64,000 nucleotides of DNA from Paenibacillus polymyxa M1 (GTDB taxonomy: Bacteria; Bacillota; Bacilli; Paenibacillales; Paenibacillaceae): the NCBI RefSeq assembly GCF_000237325.1, contig NC_017542.1:3320501-3384500 (forward strand). Direction: 5' to 3'. Positions 14,496-25,592 of this stretch are shown here, piece by piece (position 1 is the stretch's first letter; each line of letters opens with the position of its first letter). A model generated the notes under the pieces. It saw nothing but the letters and a program-made list of their open reading frames with translations, searched no databases and was not told where the DNA came from. The position numbers were made by a program, and so were the translations under genes.

Positions 14496-14511
14496 TGTAA
14501 TGAATTTCACA
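14496..14511 (+). promoter_or_regulatory. Fnr-like box upstream of the formate dehydrogenase/hydrogenase operon
   Basis: TGTAATGAATTTCACA matches the Fnr/Crp form TGTGA-N6-TCACA with one mismatch. Its centre (14503.5) is exactly 29.5 bp before the first base of a TACCAT hexamer at 14533-14538. This places it at -41.5 for a start near 14545, the class II activator position. Confidence 0.6.
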
Positions 14512-14670: not shown

Positions 14671-15036
14671 ATGTTGAATACCGAATTGGAATACCGTGAG
14701 CGCATCAGGAAGCTGGCCGTATGTATTGTCAAGCATTACCGAGGAAAAGGACCGGACAACGTTAAGGTTTCTTTGAACTCACCACTCCGAGTTACAGTAG
14801 AGATCCAAGGTACTTTGTCTAATCTGTCCGAAATTCTCGTTCATGAAGGCGCTGTGGAAAAGGTCAGTGATTACTGGAATGTCCTTCGTCCTTATCTGGA
14901 AAAGGAGTTTATGAGGGAAGCCGAAAAAACACTTGGCAGTCCCTTCACTTACACTTGGGAGGTCTGCCCCTCCGTCCATGGAGACGGACATATTATCATT
15001 ACTCTTGAACTACAACACATACCCCGGTTGGATTAG
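14671..15036 (+). CDS. DUF2294-type protein preceding formate dehydrogenase
   Basis: A 121-residue soluble protein resembling the DUF2294 family. As I recall, Bacillus subtilis YrhF, next to the YrhE formate dehydrogenase gene, has this domain, so the neighbourhood here repeats that association. The sequence shows a start region rich in charged helix residues and a conserved-looking stretch VKVSLNSPLRVTVEIQGTLS, and it lacks cysteine clusters or membrane helices. GGAG precedes the ATG. It is the first gene after the Fnr-type promoter and ends about 130 bp before fdhF, so it is likely co-transcribed. Function is unknown; an accessory role in formate metabolism is an inference from position only. 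Confidence 0.75.
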   Translation: MLNTELEYRERIRKLAVCIVKHYRGKGPDNVKVSLNSPLRVTVEIQGTLSNLSEILVHEGAVEKVSDYWNVLRPYLEKEFMREAEKTLGSPFTYTWEVCPSVHGDGHIIITLELQHIPRLD

Positions 15037-15164
15037 CGGGAAGGAGATTATCTCCTCGCTCGCGGATAAGCCAGTACAGAATGCAGCGTAAAGCGGCATT
15101 TTTGTATTGGCTTTTTTTATGTTACGAGTTTCATCTATTTCATATAAAAAGAGGTGCTGCACAC

Positions 15165-17327
15165 ATGGCAGACAAGGTATTAACAGTATGTCCTTACTGC
15201 GGAAGCGGTTGTCAGCTTCATTTGCTAGTGGACAAAGGACAGGTAATTGGCGCGGAGCCAGCTAATGGCCGTACAAATGAAGGAACATTGTGTCTGAAGG
15301 GACATTATGGGTGGGATTTTCTGAATGATCCACAGATTCTGACTGCACGCTTGCGCAAGCCCATGATTCGCAAAAATGGAGTCATGGAGGAAGTGGAATG
15401 GAATGAAGCCATTCAGTATACTGCCGAACGGCTGTCAGCAATTAAGGAAAAGTATGGACCTGACTCTATCATGGGGACGGGTTCCGCACGCGGTCCGGGG
15501 AATGAAGCCAATTATGTCATGCAAAAGTTCATGCGGGCAGTCATTGGCACCAATAATATTGATCACTGTGCCCGTGTTTGCCACGGTCCTTCCGTAGCAG
15601 GCTTAACCTACTCGCTTGGGGATGGGGCTATGTCCAACTCTATTCCTGAAATTGAACATTCTGATCTCCTTTTCGTATTTGGATACAATGCGCCAGAAAC
15701 GCATCCAATCGTCGCAAGACGTATTGTAGCTGCCAAGCAAAGAGGTGCCAAAATTATTGTATGTGATCCTCGTATGACTGAAACAGGGCGCATCGCGGAT
15801 ATGTGGCTACCTCTTAAAGGCGGCTCGAACATGGCTTTGGTGAACGCCTTTGGTCATGTGCTAGTACATGAAGGGCTGTACGACAAAAGATATGTCGAAG
15901 CAAACACAGAAGGCTTTGCCGAATATGTAGAAAACATTAAAAAATATACACCTGAATATGCGGAAGGTATTACGGGTGTCAAGGCTGCTGACATTCGGGC
16001 GGCTATGAGGGAATATGCCAAGGCTCCTACCGCTACAATTCTATACGGAATGGGCGTATGTCAATTTTCACAGGCCGTTGATGTGGTAAAAGGTCTCGCT
16101 TCCCTTGCCCTGCTTACTGGTAATCTGGGCAAGCCAAATGTAGGTATTGGACCTGTACGTGGACAAAACAATGTCCAGGGCTCCTGCGACATGGGTGCAT
16201 TACCCAATGTGTATCCTGGTTACCAGGATGTCATCGACACTGCAGTTCGCAAAAAGTTTGAAAAAGCATGGGGTGTTGAGCTACCGCGTAAAAAAGGTTA
16301 TTCACTTACAGAAGTACCGCATCTCATCCTGAAAGAGAACAAGCTGAAGGCTTATTATATTTTCGGCGAAGACCCTGTACAAAGTGATCCGAACGCTGCC
16401 GAGCTGCGTGAAGCGCTAGAACAATTGGAATTTGTCGTAGTACAGGATATTTTCATGAACAAAACGGCGCTACACGCGGACGTCATCCTCCCTTCTACCG
16501 CTTGGGGCGAGCATGACGGGGTGTATTCTTCGGCAGATCGGGGCTTTCAGCGTATCCGTAAGGCCGTCGAGCCGCAAGGTGATGTAAAGCCTGACTGGGC
16601 CATTATTAGTGAGGTTGCTACCGCCATGGGCTACCCTATGTCCTATGCGAACACAGAGGAAATCTGGGATGAAATGCGAAGCCTCAGTCCTTTATTCGCT
16701 GGTGCCAGCTACCAGAAAATGGAGGAACAAGGCGGCGTACAATGGCCATGCCCTACAGAGGATCATCCAGGTACACCGTATTTGTACAAAGGCAATCAAT
16801 TTTCCACACCTAGTGGTAAAGGTCGATTATTCGCCTGCGAATGGCGCCCGCCGCAAGAACAGCCGGATGCGCAATTCCCGCTTGTTTTATCTACAGTCCG
16901 TGAGGTAGGTCATTACTCCGTGCGTACTATGACTGGCAACTGCCGTGCATTGCGCCAGTTGTCTGATGAGCCTGGATTTATTCAGATTAGCCCTGAAGAC
17001 GGAGCAGATCTGAACATTCTAGATGGCGAAATTGTGGCTATCTCCTCGCGTCGGGGACGCATTATGGCGCGGGCACAAATCAGTGACCGTGTGCAGAAAG
17101 GTGCGACCTACATGACCTATCACTGGTGGGTTGGAGCATGTAACGAGTTGACCGCCGATTTTCTCGACCCAGTATCCAAAACCCCGGAATTAAAATACTG
17201 TGCCATCCGGTTGGAGCGGATTGCCGACCAAGCGCAGGCTGAACGTGATGTACATGAATCATACCAACAGATTCGTAAACAAATGAACGTTCAGGAAGCC
17301 GTTTTAGCTGACAAGGTGACGAGATGA
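15165..17327 (+). CDS. fdhF: Formate dehydrogenase catalytic subunit, FdhF type (Cys form)
   Basis: A 720-residue molybdopterin oxidoreductase. The ATG after GAGGTG is chosen; a longer frame from 15081 adds a poor 28-residue extension. A [4Fe-4S] site is formed by C9, C12, C16 and C43, followed by the conserved lysine in CLKG. The catalytic position in HCARVCHGPSVAGL (C139) is cysteine, where E. coli FdhF has selenocysteine 140; the following histidine is kept. Size and lack of N-terminal ferredoxin extensions match FdhF of formate-hydrogen lyase and of hydrogen-dependent CO2 reductase. It interconverts formate and CO2 and hands electrons to iron-sulfur subunits. The next gene overlaps its stop (ATGA), so the two are translationally coupled. 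FdhD and cofactor genes are not in this window. Confidence 0.93.
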   Translation: MADKVLTVCPYCGSGCQLHLLVDKGQVIGAEPANGRTNEGTLCLKGHYGWDFLNDPQILTARLRKPMIRKNGVMEEVEWNEAIQYTAERLSAIKEKYGPDSIMGTGSARGPGNEANYVMQKFMRAVIGTNNIDHCARVCHGPSVAGLTYSLGDGAMSNSIPEIEHSDLLFVFGYNAPETHPIVARRIVAAKQRGAKIIVCDPRMTETGRIADMWLPLKGGSNMALVNAFGHVLVHEGLYDKRYVEANTEGFAEYVENIKKYTPEYAEGITGVKAADIRAAMREYAKAPTATILYGMGVCQFSQAVDVVKGLASLALLTGNLGKPNVGIGPVRGQNNVQGSCDMGALPNVYPGYQDVIDTAVRKKFEKAWGVELPRKKGYSLTEVPHLILKENKLKAYYIFGEDPVQSDPNAAELREALEQLEFVVVQDIFMNKTALHADVILPSTAWGEHDGVYSSADRGFQRIRKAVEPQGDVKPDWAIISEVATAMGYPMSYANTEEIWDEMRSLSPLFAGASYQKMEEQGGVQWPCPTEDHPGTPYLYKGNQFSTPSGKGRLFACEWRPPQEQPDAQFPLVLSTVREVGHYSVRTMTGNCRALRQLSDEPGFIQISPEDGADLNILDGEIVAISSRRGRIMARAQISDRVQKGATYMTYHWWVGACNELTADFLDPVSKTPELKYCAIRLERIADQAQAERDVHESYQQIRKQMNVQEAVLADKVTR

Positions 17328-17953
17328 GCGGCGCGCGCAACACGCTGAGCCGTCCGACAAACAGAATGGGGTCAGCCGATAGAACAAGTGCTATTGCTTC
17401 CTCATTCGTCGTTGCAGACGGCGGGCAATGTATTGGCTGCAAAGCCTGTGAACTGGCGTGTTTTGCCGTTCATGGGCAGGCGGGCGGCATAGGCGCTTCG
17501 GTCGGAACCGTCAGTGTGCCTGTGGTTCCCAAGGTATATGTAGTGCGCGCCGGAGATACGTACGTGCCAGTGCAATGCCGGCATTGTGAAAATGCCCCCT
17601 GTGCACATGCCTGCCCGGTGCAGGCCATTCGCCAGGAGGATGGCGTAGTCATGATTGATGAGGACCGATGCATCGGCTGCACCTCCTGTGTCTTGGCCTG
17701 CCCCTTCGGAGCAATCGAGGTGTCTCCAGTCTATCGAGCCGGACACGTTATCACGCAGTCCGGTCTGACTCACCGTGCGAATCGAACCGCGCTTCCCCGC
17801 ACTGCGGCAAGCAAATGCGATCTGTGCGCGGAAACAGAGAACGGACAGCCTGCTTGTGTAGAGGCCTGTCCAAATCATGTGCTACGGCTGGCCAATGGTA
17901 TATCCGACTCGCCTCCAGAGCCTCGGCGGGAAGTCTTTTTCCCACGCCTGTAA
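17324..17953 (+). CDS. HycB/HydN-like ferredoxin subunit with four [4Fe-4S] sites (copy 1)
   Basis: A 209-residue electron-transfer protein starting at an ATG that overlaps the fdhF stop by four bases. Sixteen cysteines fall into the four groups typical of HycB/DmsB-like subunits: CIGCKACELAC, CRHCENAPCAHAC, CIGCTSCVLAC and CDLC...C...C near the C-terminus. No twin-arginine signal or membrane helix is present, so it is cytosolic. It probably connects FdhF with the hydrogenase as a nanowire subunit. An N-terminal extension of about 25 residues rich in Ser/Arg is less conserved-looking. It is the first of two such genes that flank hydA. Confidence 0.9.
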   Translation: MSGARNTLSRPTNRMGSADRTSAIASSFVVADGGQCIGCKACELACFAVHGQAGGIGASVGTVSVPVVPKVYVVRAGDTYVPVQCRHCENAPCAHACPVQAIRQEDGVVMIDEDRCIGCTSCVLACPFGAIEVSPVYRAGHVITQSGLTHRANRTALPRTAASKCDLCAETENGQPACVEACPNHVLRLANGISDSPPEPRREVFFPRL

Positions 17954-17985
17954 GGTCAAAATCAGCCGCAGAAAGGTAGAAAAAC

Positions 17986-19488
17986 ATGTCAACAACAGAC
18001 AAGATCTCTTCGCCTCCATGTATGAGGACGTCTGATTCTACAGACCCCGTCATTCATATTGACCCAACGCTCTGTACTGGATGCAGACGCTGTGCGGGTG
18101 TTTGTCCGGTAGATGCCATAGAGGGACTGCCTGGAGAACCTCAAACCGTGAACGCAGACCGCTGTGTTATTTGCGGTCAATGTGTGCAAATCTGCAGCGT
18201 ATACGCCACAGATTGGGCAGATTCATCTCCGCAGGCAGCCGCCATCAAACGTCAGGAACGTATACGTGAACGCGATATGCCTGCCGACACCGGCGAACCG
18301 CTCTTTGCTGCCTATTATAGCTACAGCCTGAATAAGGTAGCTGACATGATGAAGAAGCCAGGACAGCTTCGAATCGTGCAGTGCGCCCCAGCCATTCGTG
18401 TGTCACTCGCGGAGGAATTTGGTATGCCGTTTGGTACCCTAACACCCGGAAAAATGGCCGCTGCCCTTCGTCGCCTCGGCTTTGATCGAGTATATGATAC
18501 GAATTTCGGAGCTGACGTAACCATCATGGAAGAAGGCACTGAGTTGATTCGCCGCGTAACCGAGGGTGGACCGTTACCGATGTTCACATCCTGCTGTCCA
18601 GCTTGGGTCCGTTTTGCCGAGATTGAATACCCCGATCTGCTAGACCATCTATCCAGTTGCAAATCGCCAATGCAAATGGTGGGAGCGCTGGTCAAGACCT
18701 ATGGTGCACAGCTGGATGAGGTGGAGCCTGCGAATATTTACAGCGTCGCGATCATGCCATGTACCTGTAAACAATTTGAATGCGATCGTCCCGAAATGGA
18801 ATCCGACGGTTATCGTGATGTGGATGAGGTATTGACCACGCGTGAGCTTGCATACTGGATCAAGCAACAAGGCATTGATTTTATGAACCTGCCTGATGAG
18901 GAATTTGATGCACCGCTAGGGCAATATTCAGGCGCAGGTACTATTTTTGGTGTAACTGGAGGAGTTATGGAAGCTGCCATCCGCACAGGTTATGAACTGC
19001 TGACGAATGAGAAGCTGCCAAAGCTCCAGCTGGATTTTGTCCGTGGCGAGGAAGGCATTCGAGTAGCGGAGGTACAGGTGGGCGAATTGCAGCTCAAGGT
19101 AGCGGTCGTCGCTGGACTCCAGCATGCCTATCAGCTCCTGGATCGTGTGCAGGCAGGCGAATGTGATTATCATTTTATTGAGGTGATGGGCTGTCCAGCT
19201 GGGTGTATCAGCGGAGGAGGGCAACCCAAGCTCATGTTAGAAAAACAAAAAATCGAGGCTTATCGTGCGCGTAAATCGTCCATCTATGGACATGATGCTG
19301 CATCTCAGGTGCGCAAATCGCATGAGAATCCTTTTATCATCAAGCTGTACGATGAATTTCTAGGTGAGCCGCTAGGTCATGTATCACACCATCTGCTGCA
19401 CACGACCTTTCAAAAGCGTGGACCCGGCAGGCAGAGCCGCAGCAGTGATATGTCCGTCAAAGGACATATCGATTATCCCATTCATTAG
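17986..19488 (+). CDS. hydA: [FeFe]-hydrogenase catalytic subunit
   Basis: A 500-residue monomeric-type [FeFe]-hydrogenase that makes or oxidises H2. Two [4Fe-4S] ferredoxin motifs lie near residues 30-75 (CTGCRRCAGVC and CVICGQCVQIC). All three H-cluster signatures are intact: L1 TSCCPAW (201-207), L2 MPCTCKQFE (257-265) and L3 EVMGCPAGCISGGGQP (399-414). It has no NADH-binding or quinone-linked modules. AAGGTAG lies before the ATG. Its position between two HycB-like genes and after fdhF matches HydA2 of the Acetobacterium woodii hydrogen-dependent CO2 reductase. The direction in vivo (H2 release from formate or CO2 reduction) cannot be read from sequence; H2 release during fermentation is likely in this host. 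Confidence 0.95.
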   Translation: MSTTDKISSPPCMRTSDSTDPVIHIDPTLCTGCRRCAGVCPVDAIEGLPGEPQTVNADRCVICGQCVQICSVYATDWADSSPQAAAIKRQERIRERDMPADTGEPLFAAYYSYSLNKVADMMKKPGQLRIVQCAPAIRVSLAEEFGMPFGTLTPGKMAAALRRLGFDRVYDTNFGADVTIMEEGTELIRRVTEGGPLPMFTSCCPAWVRFAEIEYPDLLDHLSSCKSPMQMVGALVKTYGAQLDEVEPANIYSVAIMPCTCKQFECDRPEMESDGYRDVDEVLTTRELAYWIKQQGIDFMNLPDEEFDAPLGQYSGAGTIFGVTGGVMEAAIRTGYELLTNEKLPKLQLDFVRGEEGIRVAEVQVGELQLKVAVVAGLQHAYQLLDRVQAGECDYHFIEVMGCPAGCISGGGQPKLMLEKQKIEAYRARKSSIYGHDAASQVRKSHENPFIIKLYDEFLGEPLGHVSHHLLHTTFQKRGPGRQSRSSDMSVKGHIDYPIH

Positions 19489-19558
19489 TACGTTCAACAC
19501 ATAGATATAATCATTAGAAATTATAATTTGCCGTTAGTTAGAGAGGAGTCGAGTTAGT

Positions 19559-20149
19559 ATGAATCGTTTTGTTTTAGCTGATCCCGATCAGTGTATCGGC
19601 TGTCGTACCTGTGAAATCGCATGTGTTATCGCACATTCATCGGAGAACCCTTTTATCTCGCCAGATGACGAGTTTCATTTTCACCCTCGCTTAAAGGTGA
19701 TCAAATCCTTTGGAGTCACCGCACCTGTCCAGTGTCGTCACTGTGAGGATGCTCCATGTGCTAATGCTTGCCCGAACGGCTCCATTACGAACGCAGACGG
19801 CTGCATTCTTATTAACAGTGAAAGTTGCATTGGCTGTAAAACCTGCATGATCGCCTGCCCTTACGGCGCGATTACCATGGTGCCTCAATACAGAGACGGA
19901 CAGCCGGTCGTGCAAGACGGACTGTACACTAATGTGTCGGGTCGTTTGCAACCCAAAGAACGCATGATTGCCAGCAAATGTGATTTGTGCGAAGGTGTGG
20001 ATGGCGGACCGGCCTGTATTGGAAAATGTCCAACGCAAGCCCTCAAGCTGGTCGAGCCAGATCTGGTTCATGCACGGGTTGAGGAAAAACGAGCTGCAAG
20101 TGCACGTCAGCTGCTGCATATGACACGTATTCCGGCGACGGGTCTATAA
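19559..20149 (+). CDS. HycB/HydN-like ferredoxin subunit with four [4Fe-4S] sites (copy 2)
   Basis: A 196-residue paralogue of the ferredoxin gene upstream of hydA. The four cysteine groups are CIGCRTCEIAC, CRHCEDAPCANAC, CIGCKTCMIAC and CDLCEG...C...C. GAGAGGAGTCGAG precedes the ATG, after a 70-bp gap from hydA. The insert between groups one and two (HSSENPFISPDDEFHFHPRL) is longer than in copy 1, so the two are not recent duplicates. In HDCR complexes two different HycB subunits link the dehydrogenase and the hydrogenase, and this pair fits that arrangement. It ends one base before the next start codon, suggesting tight coupling. Confidence 0.9.
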   Translation: MNRFVLADPDQCIGCRTCEIACVIAHSSENPFISPDDEFHFHPRLKVIKSFGVTAPVQCRHCEDAPCANACPNGSITNADGCILINSESCIGCKTCMIACPYGAITMVPQYRDGQPVVQDGLYTNVSGRLQPKERMIASKCDLCEGVDGGPACIGKCPTQALKLVEPDLVHARVEEKRAASARQLLHMTRIPATGL

Positions 20150-20150
20150 C

Positions 20151-21599
20151 ATGACTCCGTCTTCTCCTCTGGTCAAAGTTATGCGGACCGAACGGGATGC
20201 ACTAGGAGACATGGAAATTCCTGCGGAGGCCTTGTACGGTATTCACACCGCACGTGCGATGAACAATTTTGCAGTCAGCGGCAGGCCCGTGAACAGAAAC
20301 CTGATTCAGGCTCTTGTATTGGTGAAAAAAACGGCTGCTCAAGTCAATGGTGAGCAGAAACGGCTACCTACTCACCGGGTATCTGCCATTGTAAATGCCT
20401 GCGATGAATTACTCGCTGGACGGCATCAAGATATGTTTACCGTAGATGCCATGCAAGGCGGCGCAGGCACCAGTACCCATATGAATGTAAATGAGGTCAT
20501 TGCTAATTTGGCCATCGTACAGCTAGGGGGGCAGCCAGGGCAATATGAGCTTGTACATCCGCTGGATGATGTGAACTGCTGCCAATCTACGAATGATGTC
20601 TATCCTACGGCGCTACGAATTGCTGCGATACGCCTGCTGCGCCCTTTATGTGACACGCTGTCTTCGTTACAAAATACTTTACAGCAAAAAGAAATAGAAT
20701 ATGCCGACCTGCTCAAGCTAGGCCGCACACAGCTAATGGATGCCCTGCCTATGATGGCCGGGCAAGGCTTTGGTGCCTACGCAAAAGCTATAGCGCGTGA
20801 CCGTTGGCGCCTCTATAAAGCCGAAGAACGGCTGCGAGAAATCCCAATTGGAGGCACGGCGATTGGCACAGGTATGAATGCGCCTCGGGCTTACAGCTAC
20901 CGGATGGTCGAAAAGCTGGCGGACGAGACTGGATTAGGACTATGTCGTAGCGACCACCCCATGGACCCGATTCAAAATATGGATGTCTTCGTTGAGGTAT
21001 CGGGTCTACTTAAATCCGCTGCCGTAAATCTGCTCAAAATATCTGGCGATTTTCGTCTGCTGGCCTCTGGTCCTTTCGGTGGTATCGGTGAATACATGCT
21101 GCCTCCGGTCCAAGCTGGCTCCTCTATTATGCCAGGCAAGGTCAATCCGGTGATGGCAGAAATGGCCGGATTGACAGCGATGCGCGTGATGGCCAATGAT
21201 GCGGCTATCACGATGGCTGCTGCCTCTGGACAGCTGGAGCTGAACGCGTTCCTACCGTTGATTGCCGAGTCGCTGCTGGAATCTCTGCACATTCTCAGCA
21301 ATGCCGTTCAACTGTTCGAGGAACGGTGTGTGCGCGGTCTGATCGTACATGAGGAACGCTGCTCTGCTAATCTGCACAGCTCAGCTGTGATGGCTTCTGC
21401 GCTAGTCGCGGAACTTGGCTATGATGAAGCTGCTTCCATTGCATCAGCAGCCATTGCACAGGGGCGCTCACCAGAGGATATTGCAGAGGATCGCGGTCAA
21501 CTGACCCGTGCGCGGATTGACCAATTGTGCCATCCCTATACCGTTACCAAGCCCGGAATTCCGGGGCAGGAAGAAGGAACTCACCATGGGAATGAATGA
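20151..21599 (+). CDS. Aspartase/fumarase-superfamily lyase in the hydrogenase operon (AspA-like)
   Basis: A 482-residue protein starting one base after the preceding stop. It has the family landmarks: GAGTSTHMNVNEVIANLA, CCQSTNDVYPTALRIA, GGTAIGTGMN and the flexible catalytic loop GSSIMPGKVNP. The overall match is to L-aspartate ammonia-lyase, which releases ammonium and fumarate from aspartate. AspA-like lyases occur beside [FeFe]-hydrogenase maturation genes in other anaerobes. The bridging dithiomethylamine of the H-cluster needs nitrogen, so local ammonium supply is a reasonable inference, not a proof. The C-terminal tail overlaps the start of hydF by 14 bp. A housekeeping aspartase may exist elsewhere; an altered substrate cannot be excluded. 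Confidence 0.85.
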   Translation: MTPSSPLVKVMRTERDALGDMEIPAEALYGIHTARAMNNFAVSGRPVNRNLIQALVLVKKTAAQVNGEQKRLPTHRVSAIVNACDELLAGRHQDMFTVDAMQGGAGTSTHMNVNEVIANLAIVQLGGQPGQYELVHPLDDVNCCQSTNDVYPTALRIAAIRLLRPLCDTLSSLQNTLQQKEIEYADLLKLGRTQLMDALPMMAGQGFGAYAKAIARDRWRLYKAEERLREIPIGGTAIGTGMNAPRAYSYRMVEKLADETGLGLCRSDHPMDPIQNMDVFVEVSGLLKSAAVNLLKISGDFRLLASGPFGGIGEYMLPPVQAGSSIMPGKVNPVMAEMAGLTAMRVMANDAAITMAAASGQLELNAFLPLIAESLLESLHILSNAVQLFEERCVRGLIVHEERCSANLHSSAVMASALVAELGYDEAASIASAAIAQGRSPEDIAEDRGQLTRARIDQLCHPYTVTKPGIPGQEEGTHHGNE

Positions 21600-22839
21600 T
21601 ACCCCGAGAAGCAACCGACCACATATCGTTCTGCTTGGTCGCCGAAATGCAGGCAAATCCAGCATTCTGAACACCTTGACCGGCCAGCCCGCCGCTGTGG
21701 TATCACCTATAGGAGGAACGACTACGGACCCCGTTTTCAAGCCGATGGAGCTACTTCCTGCGGGTCCCATTGTTCTGGTGGATACCGCCGGACTGGACGA
21801 TGAGGGTGAGATCGGGGAGCTGCGCCGCAACAAAACGCTAGAAATTCTTAATAGTACAGACTTGGCTCTGCTGGTCATCGACGCCACTGTTGGCGTCGGA
21901 CCATTCGAGCATGAGCTGCTTGAAAAGCTACGCACTAAAAAGATTCCTGTCATTGGGGTACTTAATAAAATAGATACCCTTGCTGAATCAGATCCGATGG
22001 CTGCAACGCTGGGGAACGAATTGAATCTCACACTGATTCCTTTCAGTGCCGCTATGCTTCGGGGGGACACTGAACTGAAAAAGGCCATCACGAATACACT
22101 CCCCCAAAACGAAGATCGCTTCCGCATCGTAGGTGACTTGTTATCACCTGGCGATCTGGTCGTGCTGGTGGTTCCTATCGATAAAGCTGCGCCAAAGGGT
22201 CGATTGATTCTGCCGCAGCAGCAAACGATCCGTGATACGCTAGAGAGCGATGCCATCGCTGTAGTGACCAAAGAGCATGAACTACGTTTGACGCTGGAGC
22301 GACTGGGGCGCAAGCCCCGCCTGGTCATTACCGATTCACAGGTCTTTATGAAAGTCGCAGCCGACACACCCAAGGATGTACCTCTTACCTCTTTCTCTAT
22401 TCTGTTTGCCCGTCATAAAGGCGATCTGGACGAACTGGTGCGAGGGGCAAGAGCCATTGATCGCCTCAAGGATGGAGACCGTGTACTCATTGCCGAAGCC
22501 TGCACTCACCAATGCCAATCTGACGATATTGGTCGAGTGAAGATCCCTCGTTGGCTCCGCCAAACGATAGGCAAACGTCTCATTATCGAGCATGCATCCG
22601 GCTCCAGTTTCCCTGACGATTTGAGTGAATATGCGTTGGTTATTCATTGCGGTGCCTGCATGCTCAATCGGCGTACAATGCTTCACCGAATGTCTGAAAC
22701 GAAAGCGGCCGGCGTGCCGATTGTGAACTATGGTGTTTTTATCGCTTATGTCCAGGGGGTCTTCCCCCGTGCTATTGAATGCTTCCCATCTGCTATGCTG
22801 GCCTGGGAGCAAGCGGCTGAAGCCGGAAGTTATTCTTAA
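21586..22839 (+). CDS. hydF: [FeFe]-hydrogenase maturation GTPase HydF
   Basis: A 417-residue scaffold/carrier protein on which the di-iron subcluster is completed and delivered to HydA. ATG 21586 is chosen because AGAAGGAA precedes it and the product then begins in the family style, MGMNDTPRSNRPHIVLLGRR. The P-loop GRRNAGKSS is at residues 18-26, G2/G3 are in GGTTTDP and DTAGLDDEGE, and NKID is present. The C-terminal cluster-binding motif is complete: C306 (CTH) and H354-C355-G-A-C358. It overlaps the aspA-like gene and ends before a strong bidirectional terminator facing hydG. Confidence 0.96.
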   Translation: MGMNDTPRSNRPHIVLLGRRNAGKSSILNTLTGQPAAVVSPIGGTTTDPVFKPMELLPAGPIVLVDTAGLDDEGEIGELRRNKTLEILNSTDLALLVIDATVGVGPFEHELLEKLRTKKIPVIGVLNKIDTLAESDPMAATLGNELNLTLIPFSAAMLRGDTELKKAITNTLPQNEDRFRIVGDLLSPGDLVVLVVPIDKAAPKGRLILPQQQTIRDTLESDAIAVVTKEHELRLTLERLGRKPRLVITDSQVFMKVAADTPKDVPLTSFSILFARHKGDLDELVRGARAIDRLKDGDRVLIAEACTHQCQSDDIGRVKIPRWLRQTIGKRLIIEHASGSSFPDDLSEYALVIHCGACMLNRRTMLHRMSETKAAGVPIVNYGVFIAYVQGVFPRAIECFPSAMLAWEQAAEAGSYS

Positions 22840-22870
22840 AATCTCATCATTAATATTTTTTCTCTAGACA

Positions 22871-22912
22871 TACAAAAGCAGCCGCGTTGGAATCAGCGCG
22901 GCTGTTTTTGTA
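22871..22912. terminator. Bidirectional terminator between hydF and hydG
   Basis: AAAAGCAGCCGCG faces GCGCGGCTGTTTTT, a GC-rich stem with Ts on both strands. It separates the converging hydF (plus) and hydG (minus) transcripts. Confidence 0.9.
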
Positions 22913-22989
22913 TGTTCAAATGCTATTATTATTAATAATAAGAATTTTCATAGCGTGACGTGAAAGGATACTGCCAATAATATATAATG

Positions 22990-24402
22990 CTAAAAATACA
23001 AATCGCGCTCGCCTGCTTCTAATCGTTCAAGTCTGTCGAGCGTCAAACGGCGCGTCGATTCACGTGGGATACGCTCCAGATTCTCTCGCAACGCGGCAGC
23101 TCCCAGTTCACGTGCCTCCTCATCCCCATAATCCAGTAGATATTCTTGGAAGGTCAGCAGCGAATTCGGCTGGCACACATTATGAATTTGTCCGGATTTG
23201 GCAAGCTCCATGAAGCGATCTCCGGTTCGTCCCTCACGGTAGCAAGCTGTACAGTAGCTTGGCATATATCCGCCACGGCACAGACTTTTAATAATTTCCG
23301 ATGGTGAGCGATGGTCTCCCACCTCAAATTGAGGCTTATCCTCCGTGTCCTGTTTGGCATAGGCCCCTACGCCCGTAGCTGATCCAGCACTAATCTGTGA
23401 CACGCCTAAACCAATGACACGGTCTCTATATTCCGGCTCCTCGCGTGTAGACAGGATCATACCAGCATAAGGGACAGCCAGTCGAAGGACGGATACAATT
23501 TTCATAAAATCATCATCGTTGACCAAGTACGGATATCGCTCCAGGTCTACATTTTCAGCCGGACGCAAGCGTGGAACCGAGACCGTGTGAGGCCCACAGC
23601 CAAAGACTTCTTCCAAGTGCTCGGCGTGTTTCAGCATGGCTACAGTTTCATAGCGGAAATCATACAAACCGTACAACACACCGATCCCCACATCATCTAT
23701 ACCTGCACGCATAGCCCGGTCCATTGCGGTGGTGTGCCAATCAAAGTCCCGTTTTGGTCCTTGTAAGTGAAATTTGCGATAGCTTTCTCGGTGATACGTT
23801 TCCTGAAATAGAATATACGTTCCAATACCCACCTCTGCCAACTTCCGATAATCCTCTTCGGTAGTGGATGCAATATTCACATTGATCCGCCGAATGCTGC
23901 CGTTATCTACTTTGACCTCATAGATCTGGCGCAGACAATCAACGATATAGTCAATGGGACAATGGACTGGGTCTTCGCCCGCTTCCAGTACGAGTCGCTT
24001 GTGTCCCAGTTCTTGAAGTACTCTGACCTCTTCCACCAATTCCTCCGGGGTCAAGCGGCTACGCGTAAAGCTATCATTGGTATGTTTATAACCACAATAT
24101 TCGCAGTTATTAACGCAATGATTGCTTACATATAAAGGAGCGAACAGCACAATCCGATTGCCATAAATCTGCTCTTTGACTGCCCTCGAAGATTTGAACA
24201 TCTCTTCCAATAATTCAGGATCATCCACATGCAAAAGAGCCGCCGCTTCACTTGCATTCAGTCCGCGGCAGGCTCTACCCTTTTCTAAAATTTCCAAAAT
24301 GCGTTGTCGATTGGTTGCCTCTTGTTTCCCCTGCTCCACTGCAGCCATAATCTCTGCTTCATTAATAAAATCCGCCGACACTTTCTCCCGTACTCCACTC
24401 AC
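22990..24402 (-). CDS. hydG: [FeFe]-hydrogenase maturase HydG (radical SAM tyrosine lyase)
   Basis: A 470-residue radical SAM enzyme that splits tyrosine and makes the CO and cyanide ligands of the H-cluster. The SAM cluster motif CVNNCEYC (C96, C100, C103; C-X3-C-X2-C) is followed by the family's EAGEDP region. The C-terminal auxiliary-cluster motif C384-X2-C387-X22-C410 separates HydG from the thiamine enzyme ThiH, so the assignment is firm. It lies 49 bp downstream of hydE on the same strand, and both probably come from the Fnr-type promoter near 25.6 kb. Length is normal and all key residues are present. Confidence 0.96.
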   Translation of the reverse strand: MSGVREKVSADFINEAEIMAAVEQGKQEATNRQRILEILEKGRACRGLNASEAAALLHVDDPELLEEMFKSSRAVKEQIYGNRIVLFAPLYVSNHCVNNCEYCGYKHTNDSFTRSRLTPEELVEEVRVLQELGHKRLVLEAGEDPVHCPIDYIVDCLRQIYEVKVDNGSIRRINVNIASTTEEDYRKLAEVGIGTYILFQETYHRESYRKFHLQGPKRDFDWHTTAMDRAMRAGIDDVGIGVLYGLYDFRYETVAMLKHAEHLEEVFGCGPHTVSVPRLRPAENVDLERYPYLVNDDDFMKIVSVLRLAVPYAGMILSTREEPEYRDRVIGLGVSQISAGSATGVGAYAKQDTEDKPQFEVGDHRSPSEIIKSLCRGGYMPSYCTACYREGRTGDRFMELAKSGQIHNVCQPNSLLTFQEYLLDYGDEEARELGAAALRENLERIPRESTRRLTLDRLERLEAGERDLYF

Positions 24403-24451
24403 GTATACCCATCTCCTTATTTATGGTTACTGCAATGTTTCCGTCACGTTC

Positions 24452-25471
24452 TCACACTGTCCCCTGTCTCATAAGCTGTCGTTGCACTCTCAAACTATCG
24501 CCGCGCCCCATATCAACTTCAAATCCAGCTCCACGGATCCGCAGCTCCAAGCAATGTCTACATTGGGCAGACTCATCACCCAAACATATTTTATTCTCAT
24601 AAATCGCATACTTAGGCCTCACCGCCAGTGGCGACAAATTAGGCATCACCACATTCGCTCCCGCCTGAAGCGCCTTCTCCCTTCCTTGGGGATGAATCGT
24701 CCCCATGGCCGTGGATGCCGGAATAAGCGCATCTGGAACGACCAATCGGGATAATGAGATGATATCAAGTGCCTTTTCCATGCTCCCCTGGCTGGCCTCA
24801 CGAAGCGGCGTGTTGCTATGTGGTAAAAAGGGGCCAATCCCGATCATATCTGGGGACAGACTATGCAAATAGACCAAATCGTCTGCTAATTCACTGTTCG
24901 TTTGTCCTGGCAATCCCACCATACATCCAGCCCCGATCTGAAAGCCGATACGTTGCAAAGCCAGCAGACGGCTACGCCTGCTTTCGATCGTCATCGTCGG
25001 ATGCAGCTTGGCGTACAAACTGGGTGAAGCTGTCTCATGCCGGAGCAAAAAACGGTCCGCACCCGCCTCGTATAATCGCTCATAAGTTTCGTCATCCCGT
25101 TCACCGATGGACAATGTAACCGCCACATCTGCAAAACGGCTTTTAATTTCCCGAATTAGTTTCGTCAGCCGAGCAGCCGTAAACCAGTAATCTTCCCCAC
25201 TTTGCAAAACAAAGGTCCGATAACCCAGTTCATACCCCTCCGCACAGCAGGCCAGAATTTCTTCCGGCTGCAAACGGTAACGGTCTGCCTGTTTATTCGA
25301 AGCACGCAGCCCACAATACATGCAATCCTGACGACATATACTTGAGAATTCAATTAATCCTCGTAAAAAAACACCTTTGCCATAACGCTCCAATTTGGTG
25401 CGAGCTGCCAGTTGACGCAGTTGAGCTCGTAGCGCCGGCTCACTATCCAGACGTGTTAGCAGTTCCGTCAT
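24452..25471 (-). CDS. hydE: [FeFe]-hydrogenase maturase HydE (radical SAM)
   Basis: A radical SAM protein that works with HydG and HydF in building the H-cluster subcluster. The motif CRQDCMYC (C46, C50, C53 from ATG 25471) is C-X3-C-X2-C, preceded by the family's FLRGLIEFSS. The 339-residue form from ATG 25471 lacks part of the usual N-terminus. The in-frame codons upstream (25472-25528) read like the missing HydE start (DELLLRLADGKEWTHTE), but contain no ATG, GTG or TTG before a TGA at 25531. A well-placed ATG at 25532 with GAAGAAGGG is in another frame. Either a non-standard start (CTG 25504 or 25510, or ACG 25525) is used, or there is a base error. HydE identity itself is secure. Confidence 0.92.
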   Translation of the reverse strand: MTELLTRLDSEPALRAQLRQLAARTKLERYGKGVFLRGLIEFSSICRQDCMYCGLRASNKQADRYRLQPEEILACCAEGYELGYRTFVLQSGEDYWFTAARLTKLIREIKSRFADVAVTLSIGERDDETYERLYEAGADRFLLRHETASPSLYAKLHPTMTIESRRSRLLALQRIGFQIGAGCMVGLPGQTNSELADDLVYLHSLSPDMIGIGPFLPHSNTPLREASQGSMEKALDIISLSRLVVPDALIPASTAMGTIHPQGREKALQAGANVVMPNLSPLAVRPKYAIYENKICLGDESAQCRHCLELRIRGAGFEVDMGRGDSLRVQRQLMRQGTV

Positions 25472-25592
25472 TTCTGTATGCGTCCATTCCTTGCCATCAG
25501 CCAGACGCAGTAATAATTCGTCCGTGACTCATCCCTTCTTCCCTCGTCCATCCGGACTTTACATCATCAGCGACTTATATCGTACATGTATT

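Follow-up and report, generated by a model that had tools for sequence, protein, structure and literature searches.

In Paenibacillus polymyxa M1 the genes of a formate dehydrogenase and an [FeFe]-hydrogenase stand behind a small gene of the DUF2294 family (PF10057, MpsC), and the question raised by this locus is what governs the passage of RNA polymerase from the DUF2294 gene into fdhF, the first of the enzyme genes. The locus lies in the analysed window, a stretch of 64,000 nucleotides of contig NC_017542.1 (positions 3,320,501 to 3,384,500), to which all coordinates given without a locus name refer. The original prediction was concerned with the enzymes and missed an attenuator RNA of about 100 nt, which is sited between DUF2294 and fdhF and is the new part of the finding. 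The enzyme cluster itself is already known in kind, in genus and in proposed role, since the works concerned (PMC6288185, PMC11736057, PMC12905484) are in print. Judging from sequence comparisons, the DUF2294 protein is probably the RNA-binding antiterminator of this operon's element.

Attenuator RNA ahead of fdhF

The terminator P2, the upstream hairpin P1 and the GGUUNGAUU block together make up one element (Table 1), in which the lower terminator stem ARCCAGUAC/GUAYUGGY is conserved from Paenibacillus through Clostridium to Desulfosporosinus. In an alignment of 20 RNA sequences (A2), 10 of the 24 pairs were changed on both sides (36 cells); the shuffled controls had means of 6.0 pairs and 10.9 cells, and slid versions reached at most 4 pairs. 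In all 20 sequences the upstream GGUU offers an alternative pairing partner to the terminator's 5' arm, partial-structure energies favoured the terminator in 20/20, and the fold of the window RNA had a z-score of -4.9. By its predicted pairing, the element at 15021-15120 has the design of a regulated attenuator, with a terminator and a mutually exclusive antiterminator.

At the gathering score no Rfam 15 family was matched in the window. With loose E-values, 1 kb of the window gave a single chance match, which lay off the element, and none fell on the element in three loci of the hydrogen-dependent CO2 reductase (HDCR) type. Model R1 of the element found one strong copy in the genome of the window (87.3 bits), the runner-up scoring 23.5 bits. 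The E-values of R1 and of the second model described below (R2) are rough, and relatedness of the genomes inflates the counts that follow. No description of this switch was found in the open-licence PMC papers covered on DUF2294, MpsC/MpsAB/YbcI and formate dehydrogenase attenuation.

Distribution of the RNA and of DUF2294

Altogether 48 loci were collected via HydA, 16 of them from Paenibacillus. The original prediction regarded DUF2294 and aspA as unusual members of the cluster, which was not supported: aspA was present in 16/16 of the Paenibacillus loci and DUF2294 preceded fdhF in 15/16, the exception (L013) being a contig that starts inside hycB. DUF2294 also precedes fdhF in eight Clostridium, Sarcina and Desulfosporosinus loci, which makes 23 of the 48. 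When R1 was run over 50 sources, 24 scored at least 75 bits, namely the window, 22 of the 23 loci with DUF2294 and one of the 25 without it (L029, C. magnum); the sole DUF2294 locus below this value was L037, with 32.6 bits.

The same picture was obtained with whole genomes. Among 296 Paenibacillales genomes the RNA was strong (at least 80 bits) in 18 and weak (31-36 bits) in four; the protein profile A1 found the same 18 genomes, and RNA and protein were always adjacent. Of the 23 genomes behind the clostridial and other HDCR loci, eight scored at least 75 bits for the RNA, and weak R1 matches were seen in G310 (35.9 bits), in G312 (29.4 bits) and as a second match in G299 (31.3 bits). DUF2294 was present in exactly nine of these 23, the eight strong-RNA genomes and G310.

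In 206 Clostridiaceae genomes 42 PF10057 matches were found, 30 of them in stand-alone genes and 12 in longer or fused ones. An R1 or R2 match adjoined 26 of the 30 stand-alone genes, in 25 cases on the 3' side and in one (G500) on the 5' side, where adjacency meant the same strand and a distance within 600 nt; matches down to 33.5 bits were counted, and the lowest one that was the sole support of a case was the 35.9 bits of G310. The four misses were G404 (contig break), G302 (unlinked, see below), one gene of G433 (contig C4), which is followed by an unmodelled hairpin, and G495 (32.8 bits in a local search). R1 gave 19 matches of at least 49 bits in these genomes, 15 of them at a PF10057 gene, one in C. 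magnum and three in G459, G391 and G458.

Ten canonical DUF2294 genes (L135-L144) were followed by another element, UUGGAAGAC..GUAAGCCAAUA..UAUUGGCUUUUUU, which is built on the same logic; that of L139 is cut by the contig end. In alignment A3 (10 sequences) 16 of 28 pairs were changed on both sides, and the alternative UUGG/CCRA pairing was possible in 39 of 40 cells. Model R2 gave 11 matches of at least 61 bits in the 206 genomes, ten of them directly 3' of a PF10057 gene, while the eleventh (G404) lies at a contig end which overlaps in sequence the end of the DUF2294 contig; the match G515:C50 had not been used in building the model. Eight weak R2 matches (35-40 bits) were located away from PF10057. 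With loose E-values, Rfam 15 gave hairpin matches of 22-27 bits for the canonical elements of L135, L142 and L144, each at most about half of the gathering score.

The genes downstream of the switch differ from case to case: fdhF, a major facilitator superfamily (MFS) transporter, purK, DUF3360, a methyl-accepting chemotaxis protein (MCP), a GGDEF-EAL protein and a xanthine permease were found. At the canonical DUF2294 genes that carry it, the second version stands ahead of transporter genes or purK. One MFS transporter was scanned and fitted L-lactate transporters best; in G515 purK comes after the switch and is followed by phosphoenolpyruvate (PEP) carboxylase, and in G452 and G500 DUF2294 and the RNA adjoin MCP or GGDEF-EAL genes. 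As judged from gene order, what stays constant is the pairing of DUF2294 with the RNA, and no downstream enzyme is a fixed partner.

Proposed role of DUF2294 in the switch

Several points weigh against the idea that DUF2294 acts on the RNA. Most of the co-occurrence of RNA and DUF2294 would be accounted for by linkage alone; in the Paenibacillales it is therefore expected, and the unlinked cases are the ones that matter. Three Clostridiaceae genomes (G459, G391, G458) carry the RNA with no PF10057 match at an E-value of 0.001, the completeness of the genomes not being given, and thus the protein may not be needed; since G459 and G458 look related, these are perhaps two independent cases. Their RNAs score 63-67 bits, which is no less than several protein-linked ones (49-69 bits). 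The GGUU/ARCC antiterminator arm has no double change in A2, so that the evidence for it rests on invariance. A recognised RNA was found at just two of the 12 long or fused PF10057 genes, the predicted DUF2294 fold matched no RNA-binding protein with confidence in a structure search, and a second DUF2294 of the window genome had no R1 match nearby and no R2 match above 22 bits in the surrounding 19.5 kb.

An unlinked pair was found in C. magnum (G302), where the RNA (76 bits) stands before fdhF on contig C4 and DUF2294 lies on contig C2, with a degenerate RNA remnant of 22.8 bits alone beside it. In order to compare the RNAs of genomes with and without the protein, three motifs, GGUUNGAUU, UNGC and UAARCC, were followed. 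All three were intact in 27/27 further RNAs from DUF2294 genomes (26 by script, L159 by eye), and in none of the three protein-less RNAs, each having at least one broken. None of the 27 is a row of A2, though some of the 17 Paenibacillales ones may be of A2 species; the 10 clostridial ones are likewise not A2 rows. The weight of this comparison is lessened by the fact that the motifs were chosen from invariant A2 columns after the three protein-less sequences had been seen.

In two Clostridium-family loci (L123, L125), whose genomes have no PF10057 match, the RNA is retained together with fdhF, the two hycB genes and molybdenum (Mo)-cofactor genes, and no hydA was seen in the stretch read.

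The RNA might be a ligand-binding riboswitch or a protein-free attenuator of Mo/tungsten-enzyme operons, DUF2294 being merely an upstream cistron with an unrelated job. The presence of the RNA without PF10057 in three of the 206 genomes, each time before fdhF, would fit this, as would the moeA, mobAB, moaA and fdhD genes seen in the clostridial clusters inspected by eye. However, the constant partner of the RNA is DUF2294 and not fdhF, the second version stands before transporters or purK, the pair adjoins MCP or GGDEF-EAL genes in G452 and G500, the conserved motifs are broken in all three protein-less RNAs and no Rfam match exceeded its threshold; we therefore consider such a riboswitch or attenuator rather unlikely. 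Ribosome-mediated or plain intercistronic attenuation, in which ribosomes finishing the DUF2294 frame, whose end overlaps GGUUNGAUU, would set the passage through the terminator, appears quite improbable: in the window, as in the other Paenibacillus loci inspected, the 5' part of the element does contain the DUF2294 stop codon, but the elements of C. magnum, G459, G391 and G458 have no preceding DUF2294 frame, and that of G500 is upstream of the DUF2294 gene.

The antiterminator role of DUF2294 is preferred because of the constant DUF2294-RNA pair, the unlinked pair of C. magnum, the disrupted motifs in the genomes without the protein and the fusion to receiver domains, as in the ANTAR proteins. 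In the model suggested, the attenuator RNA at 15021-15120 would gate transcription through the operon. By default the AAGCCAGUAC arm would form the terminator P2 and RNA polymerase would stop ahead of fdhF. In its active state DUF2294 would bind P1 and hold an extended form in which GGUU is paired to AGCC; this pairing would remove the foot of the terminator, and transcription would read on. We infer both the binding of DUF2294 to the RNA and the read-through favoured by it from sequence data. Formate, CO2/bicarbonate or the state of the Mo-cofactor may be named as candidate signals, which are guesses. The soluble complex of FdhF, the two HycB-like proteins and HydA would then mainly split formate into H2 and CO2, and the products of aspA, hydF, hydG and hydE would build its H-cluster; a fermentative role in this spore former would be expected from the literature on the genus. 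Taken as a whole, this explanation of enzyme and switch seems to us somewhat likelier to be right than wrong. If true, it would offer a means of regulating HDCR-type complexes, which are of interest for storing hydrogen and reducing CO2.

The DUF2294 protein family and related regulators

The window protein matched PF10057 weakly when taken alone (18.2 bits at a cut-off of 23), MpsC being its best Pfam name and two other weak names having E-values of 0.23-0.26. The relative L114 scored 48.4 bits, and 95 of 100 matches among the relatives carried the PF10057 annotation, those of the polymyxa group being without it; through these relatives the family assignment, as a matter of sequence comparison, appears secure. 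The structure predicted for DUF2294 (predicted local distance difference test score 85.6) consists of a helix, two strands, two helices and two strands. Pfam scans of DUF2294 proteins gave MpsC, or Response_reg with MpsC, and neither an ANTAR nor a CAT RNA-binding domain. Of the three longer PF10057 genes scanned, L146 and L153 had Response_reg and MpsC and L147 had tandem MpsC; in the latter the two PF10057 stretches (L147:1477-2205) are found shortly before a AAACCGAAATAGAGC terminator-like hairpin.

PF10057 (DUF2294, MpsC, YbcI) may be a family of RNA-binding antiterminators that has gone unrecognised. Its members would act on their own or as the output domain of response regulators, each with a two-hairpin attenuator, and would control HDCR-type complexes and, in other bacteria, transporters, purK together with PEP carboxylase, chemoreceptor genes and cyclic-di-GMP genes; we hold this general claim to be only barely better than evenly balanced. 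If true, a family named after sodium/bicarbonate transport would be a new class of antiterminators whose leader RNA is also of a new class, as seen here in Bacilli and Clostridia. The MpsC of S. aureus, of the same family, is named in excerpts of PMC6689103 as part of a Na+-translocating/bicarbonate system; the same excerpts report that deletion of mpsC gave no growth phenotype and that mpsC is not collocated with mpsAB outside the staphylococci.

The closest parallels are found among the known antiterminators. The ANTAR proteins EutV and NasR, as described in excerpts of PMC3369931 and PMC3369936, bind RNA through their output domain, to which a receiver is often joined, and have a leader hairpin with a mutually exclusive terminator. 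Here, in contrast, the protein domain is PF10057, and the conserved hexanucleotide loops with A1 and G4 were not seen in A2 by eye. The genes of BglG/LicT regulators often sit just upstream of their switch. In the BglG/LicT RNA, according to the excerpted text of PMC3369936, the antiterminator stem is broken by two internal loops and overlaps an arm of the terminator, as is the case here. Unlike BglG/LicT, however, DUF2294 has no CAT or PRD domain, and the RNA sequence is different.

The second DUF2294 of the window genome (L059:5764-6162) is canonical, with 111.8 bits. It lies in a molybdenum cluster, which by eye contains modAB, moaDE, a moeB-like gene, fdhD and moaA, at about 6.5 kb from a second, larger fdhA (980 aa). 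Ahead of this fdhA is a gap of about 0.6 kb (L059:12075-12667) with a very long terminator-like hairpin, CACCATAAACACAAGTGC, which ends about 45 nt before the gene and is not covered by R1, R2 or Rfam at gathering. Judged from this leader, the second fdhA may also be under attenuation.

Predicted enzyme complex and gene layout

The original prediction described a soluble HDCR or formate-hydrogen lyase module, and this reading was supported by the matches of three of its four subunits. HydA had HydA2 of the T. kivui HDCR (structure 7QV7) as its best PDB match (667 bits; next chain 413), and the same structure was best for both HycB-like proteins, which scored HycB4 above HycB3 (Table 1). FdhF, however, scored 1006 bits with E. 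coli FdhH, against 734 bits with its T. kivui counterpart. The phylogeny proposed as a check agreed with the prediction as far as HydA is concerned: in a tree of 52 rows, whose outgroup rows are on long branches, it fell into a clade of 31 rows including T. kivui HydA2 (support 85/94, branch not starred). Here 17 Paenibacillus rows clustered at 98/100, and HydA was joined at 100/95 to that of P. ottowii, with which it is 98% identical. These comparisons place the subunit set in the HDCR/A4 type. That FdhF and HydA instead act apart from each other, as a formate dehydrogenase and a ferredoxin-linked hydrogenase which happen to share an operon, is most improbable, for although FdhF is nearer to E. 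coli FdhH and L123 and L125 keep fdhF and both hycB genes without hydA, the other three proteins match HDCR chains best and the four-gene set was kept in 15 of the 16 Paenibacillus loci, the remaining one being cut by the contig.

The predicted fdhF, two hycB-like genes and hydA were all intact and in the order claimed, and hydE, hydF and hydG were all there. The HydA motifs TSCCP, MPCxxK and ExMxCxxGC were seen by eye, and no membrane (HycC/HycD) or NADH-linked subunit was present among the genes identified in 14671-25471, the rest of the genome not having been searched. The start of fdhF is more likely the ATG at 15165 than that at 15081, since AGAGGTG precedes the former and the latter falls within the RNA hairpin; counted from 15165, the active-site cysteine is residue 139, as predicted. 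For hydF the ATG at 21586 is the more likely start.

Table 1. Features of the locus, with the evidence for each
Feature	Position	Strand	Evidence or remark
FNR-like box TGTAATGAATTTCACA	14496..14511	.	175 nt before DUF2294; 1 mismatch to TGTGA-N6-TCACA
DUF2294/PF10057 (MpsC-like) protein, 121 aa, putative RNA-binding antiterminator	14671..15036	+	
Attenuator RNA, GGUU-N-GAUU, hairpin P1, terminator hairpin P2 and U-run	15021..15120	+	model R1 87.3 bits
GGUU, 5' arm of proposed antiterminator	15026..15029	+	pairing partner AGCC 15069-15072
Hairpin P1 with internal loop	15032..15067	+	8/13 pairs changed on both sides
Intrinsic terminator P2 and U-run	15068..15118	+	
fdhF, formate dehydrogenase H-type, Cys139, 720 aa	15165..17327	+	TIGR01591 910 bits; PDB matches
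HycB-like four-cluster ferredoxin a	17324..17953	+	best PDB match T. kivui HycB4, 190 bits
hydA, group-A4-type [FeFe]-hydrogenase	17986..19488	+	T. kivui HydA2 667 bits; tree
HycB-like four-cluster ferredoxin b	19559..20149	+	HycB4 162 bits, HycB3 149 bits
aspA, aspartate ammonia-lyase	20151..21599	+	NF008909 606 bits
hydF maturase	21586..22839	+	TIGR03918 561 bits
hydG maturase, convergent to hydF	22990..24402	-	TIGR03955 650 bits
hydE maturase	24452..25471	-	TIGR03956 459 bits

The FNR-like box was scored against the FNR consensus TGTGA-N6-TCACA. It was kept in 7/7 polymyxa-group sequences, and none with up to two mismatches was found in 400 bp of the 8/8 other Paenibacillus loci scanned. 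This palindrome upstream of DUF2294 suggests an anaerobic induction of the whole unit.

Excerpts of a 2018 review (PMC6288185) mention putative HDCR clusters in many Paenibacillus, propose a formate-hydrogen-lyase role for them and state, citing Grau and Wilson 1962, that extracts of P. polymyxa evolve H2 from formate. The four-subunit soluble formate dehydrogenase/[FeFe]-hydrogenase set is shared with the HDCR of A. woodii and T. kivui. Unlike in the HDCR, the host here is a fermenter, as known from the genus literature, aspA, hydF, hydG and hydE are linked to the cluster, and the front of the operon is formed by DUF2294 and the attenuator, which the excerpted text of PMC6288185 does not mention for the Paenibacillus clusters. 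A complex of group A4 in a non-acetogen is also that of C. beijerinckii (CbFdh/Hyd), for which excerpts of PMC12905484 report activity measured in both directions and do not deal with regulation. C. beijerinckii also encodes the same type of DUF2294 (P0072). The aspA gene probably serves the supply of NH4+ for the dithiomethylamine ligand of the H-cluster, by analogy with excerpts of PMC11736057, in which AspA is able to supply the nitrogen of this ligand and aspA is tied to hydF.

In three Paenibacillus loci outside the polymyxa group (L015, L018, L022) inspection by eye showed hycB-b and aspA to be separated by a moaA-like radical S-adenosylmethionine gene and the cluster to be followed by an fdhD-like gene; in the window, unlike in these, there is no gene between hycB-b and aspA (20149-20151). 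A transposase-like gene, judged by eye to be IS110-like, lies between hydA and hycB-b in P. sinensis HN-1 (L022:11563-12378). The fdhF of four clostridial and Desulfosporosinus loci (L021, L023, L024, L051) is split by an in-frame TGA at the position of Cys139, with a sub-threshold SECIS_3 match at this TGA in L023 and L051; as read from their codons, these are selenocysteine versions of the enzyme, and the Paenibacillus copies use cysteine.

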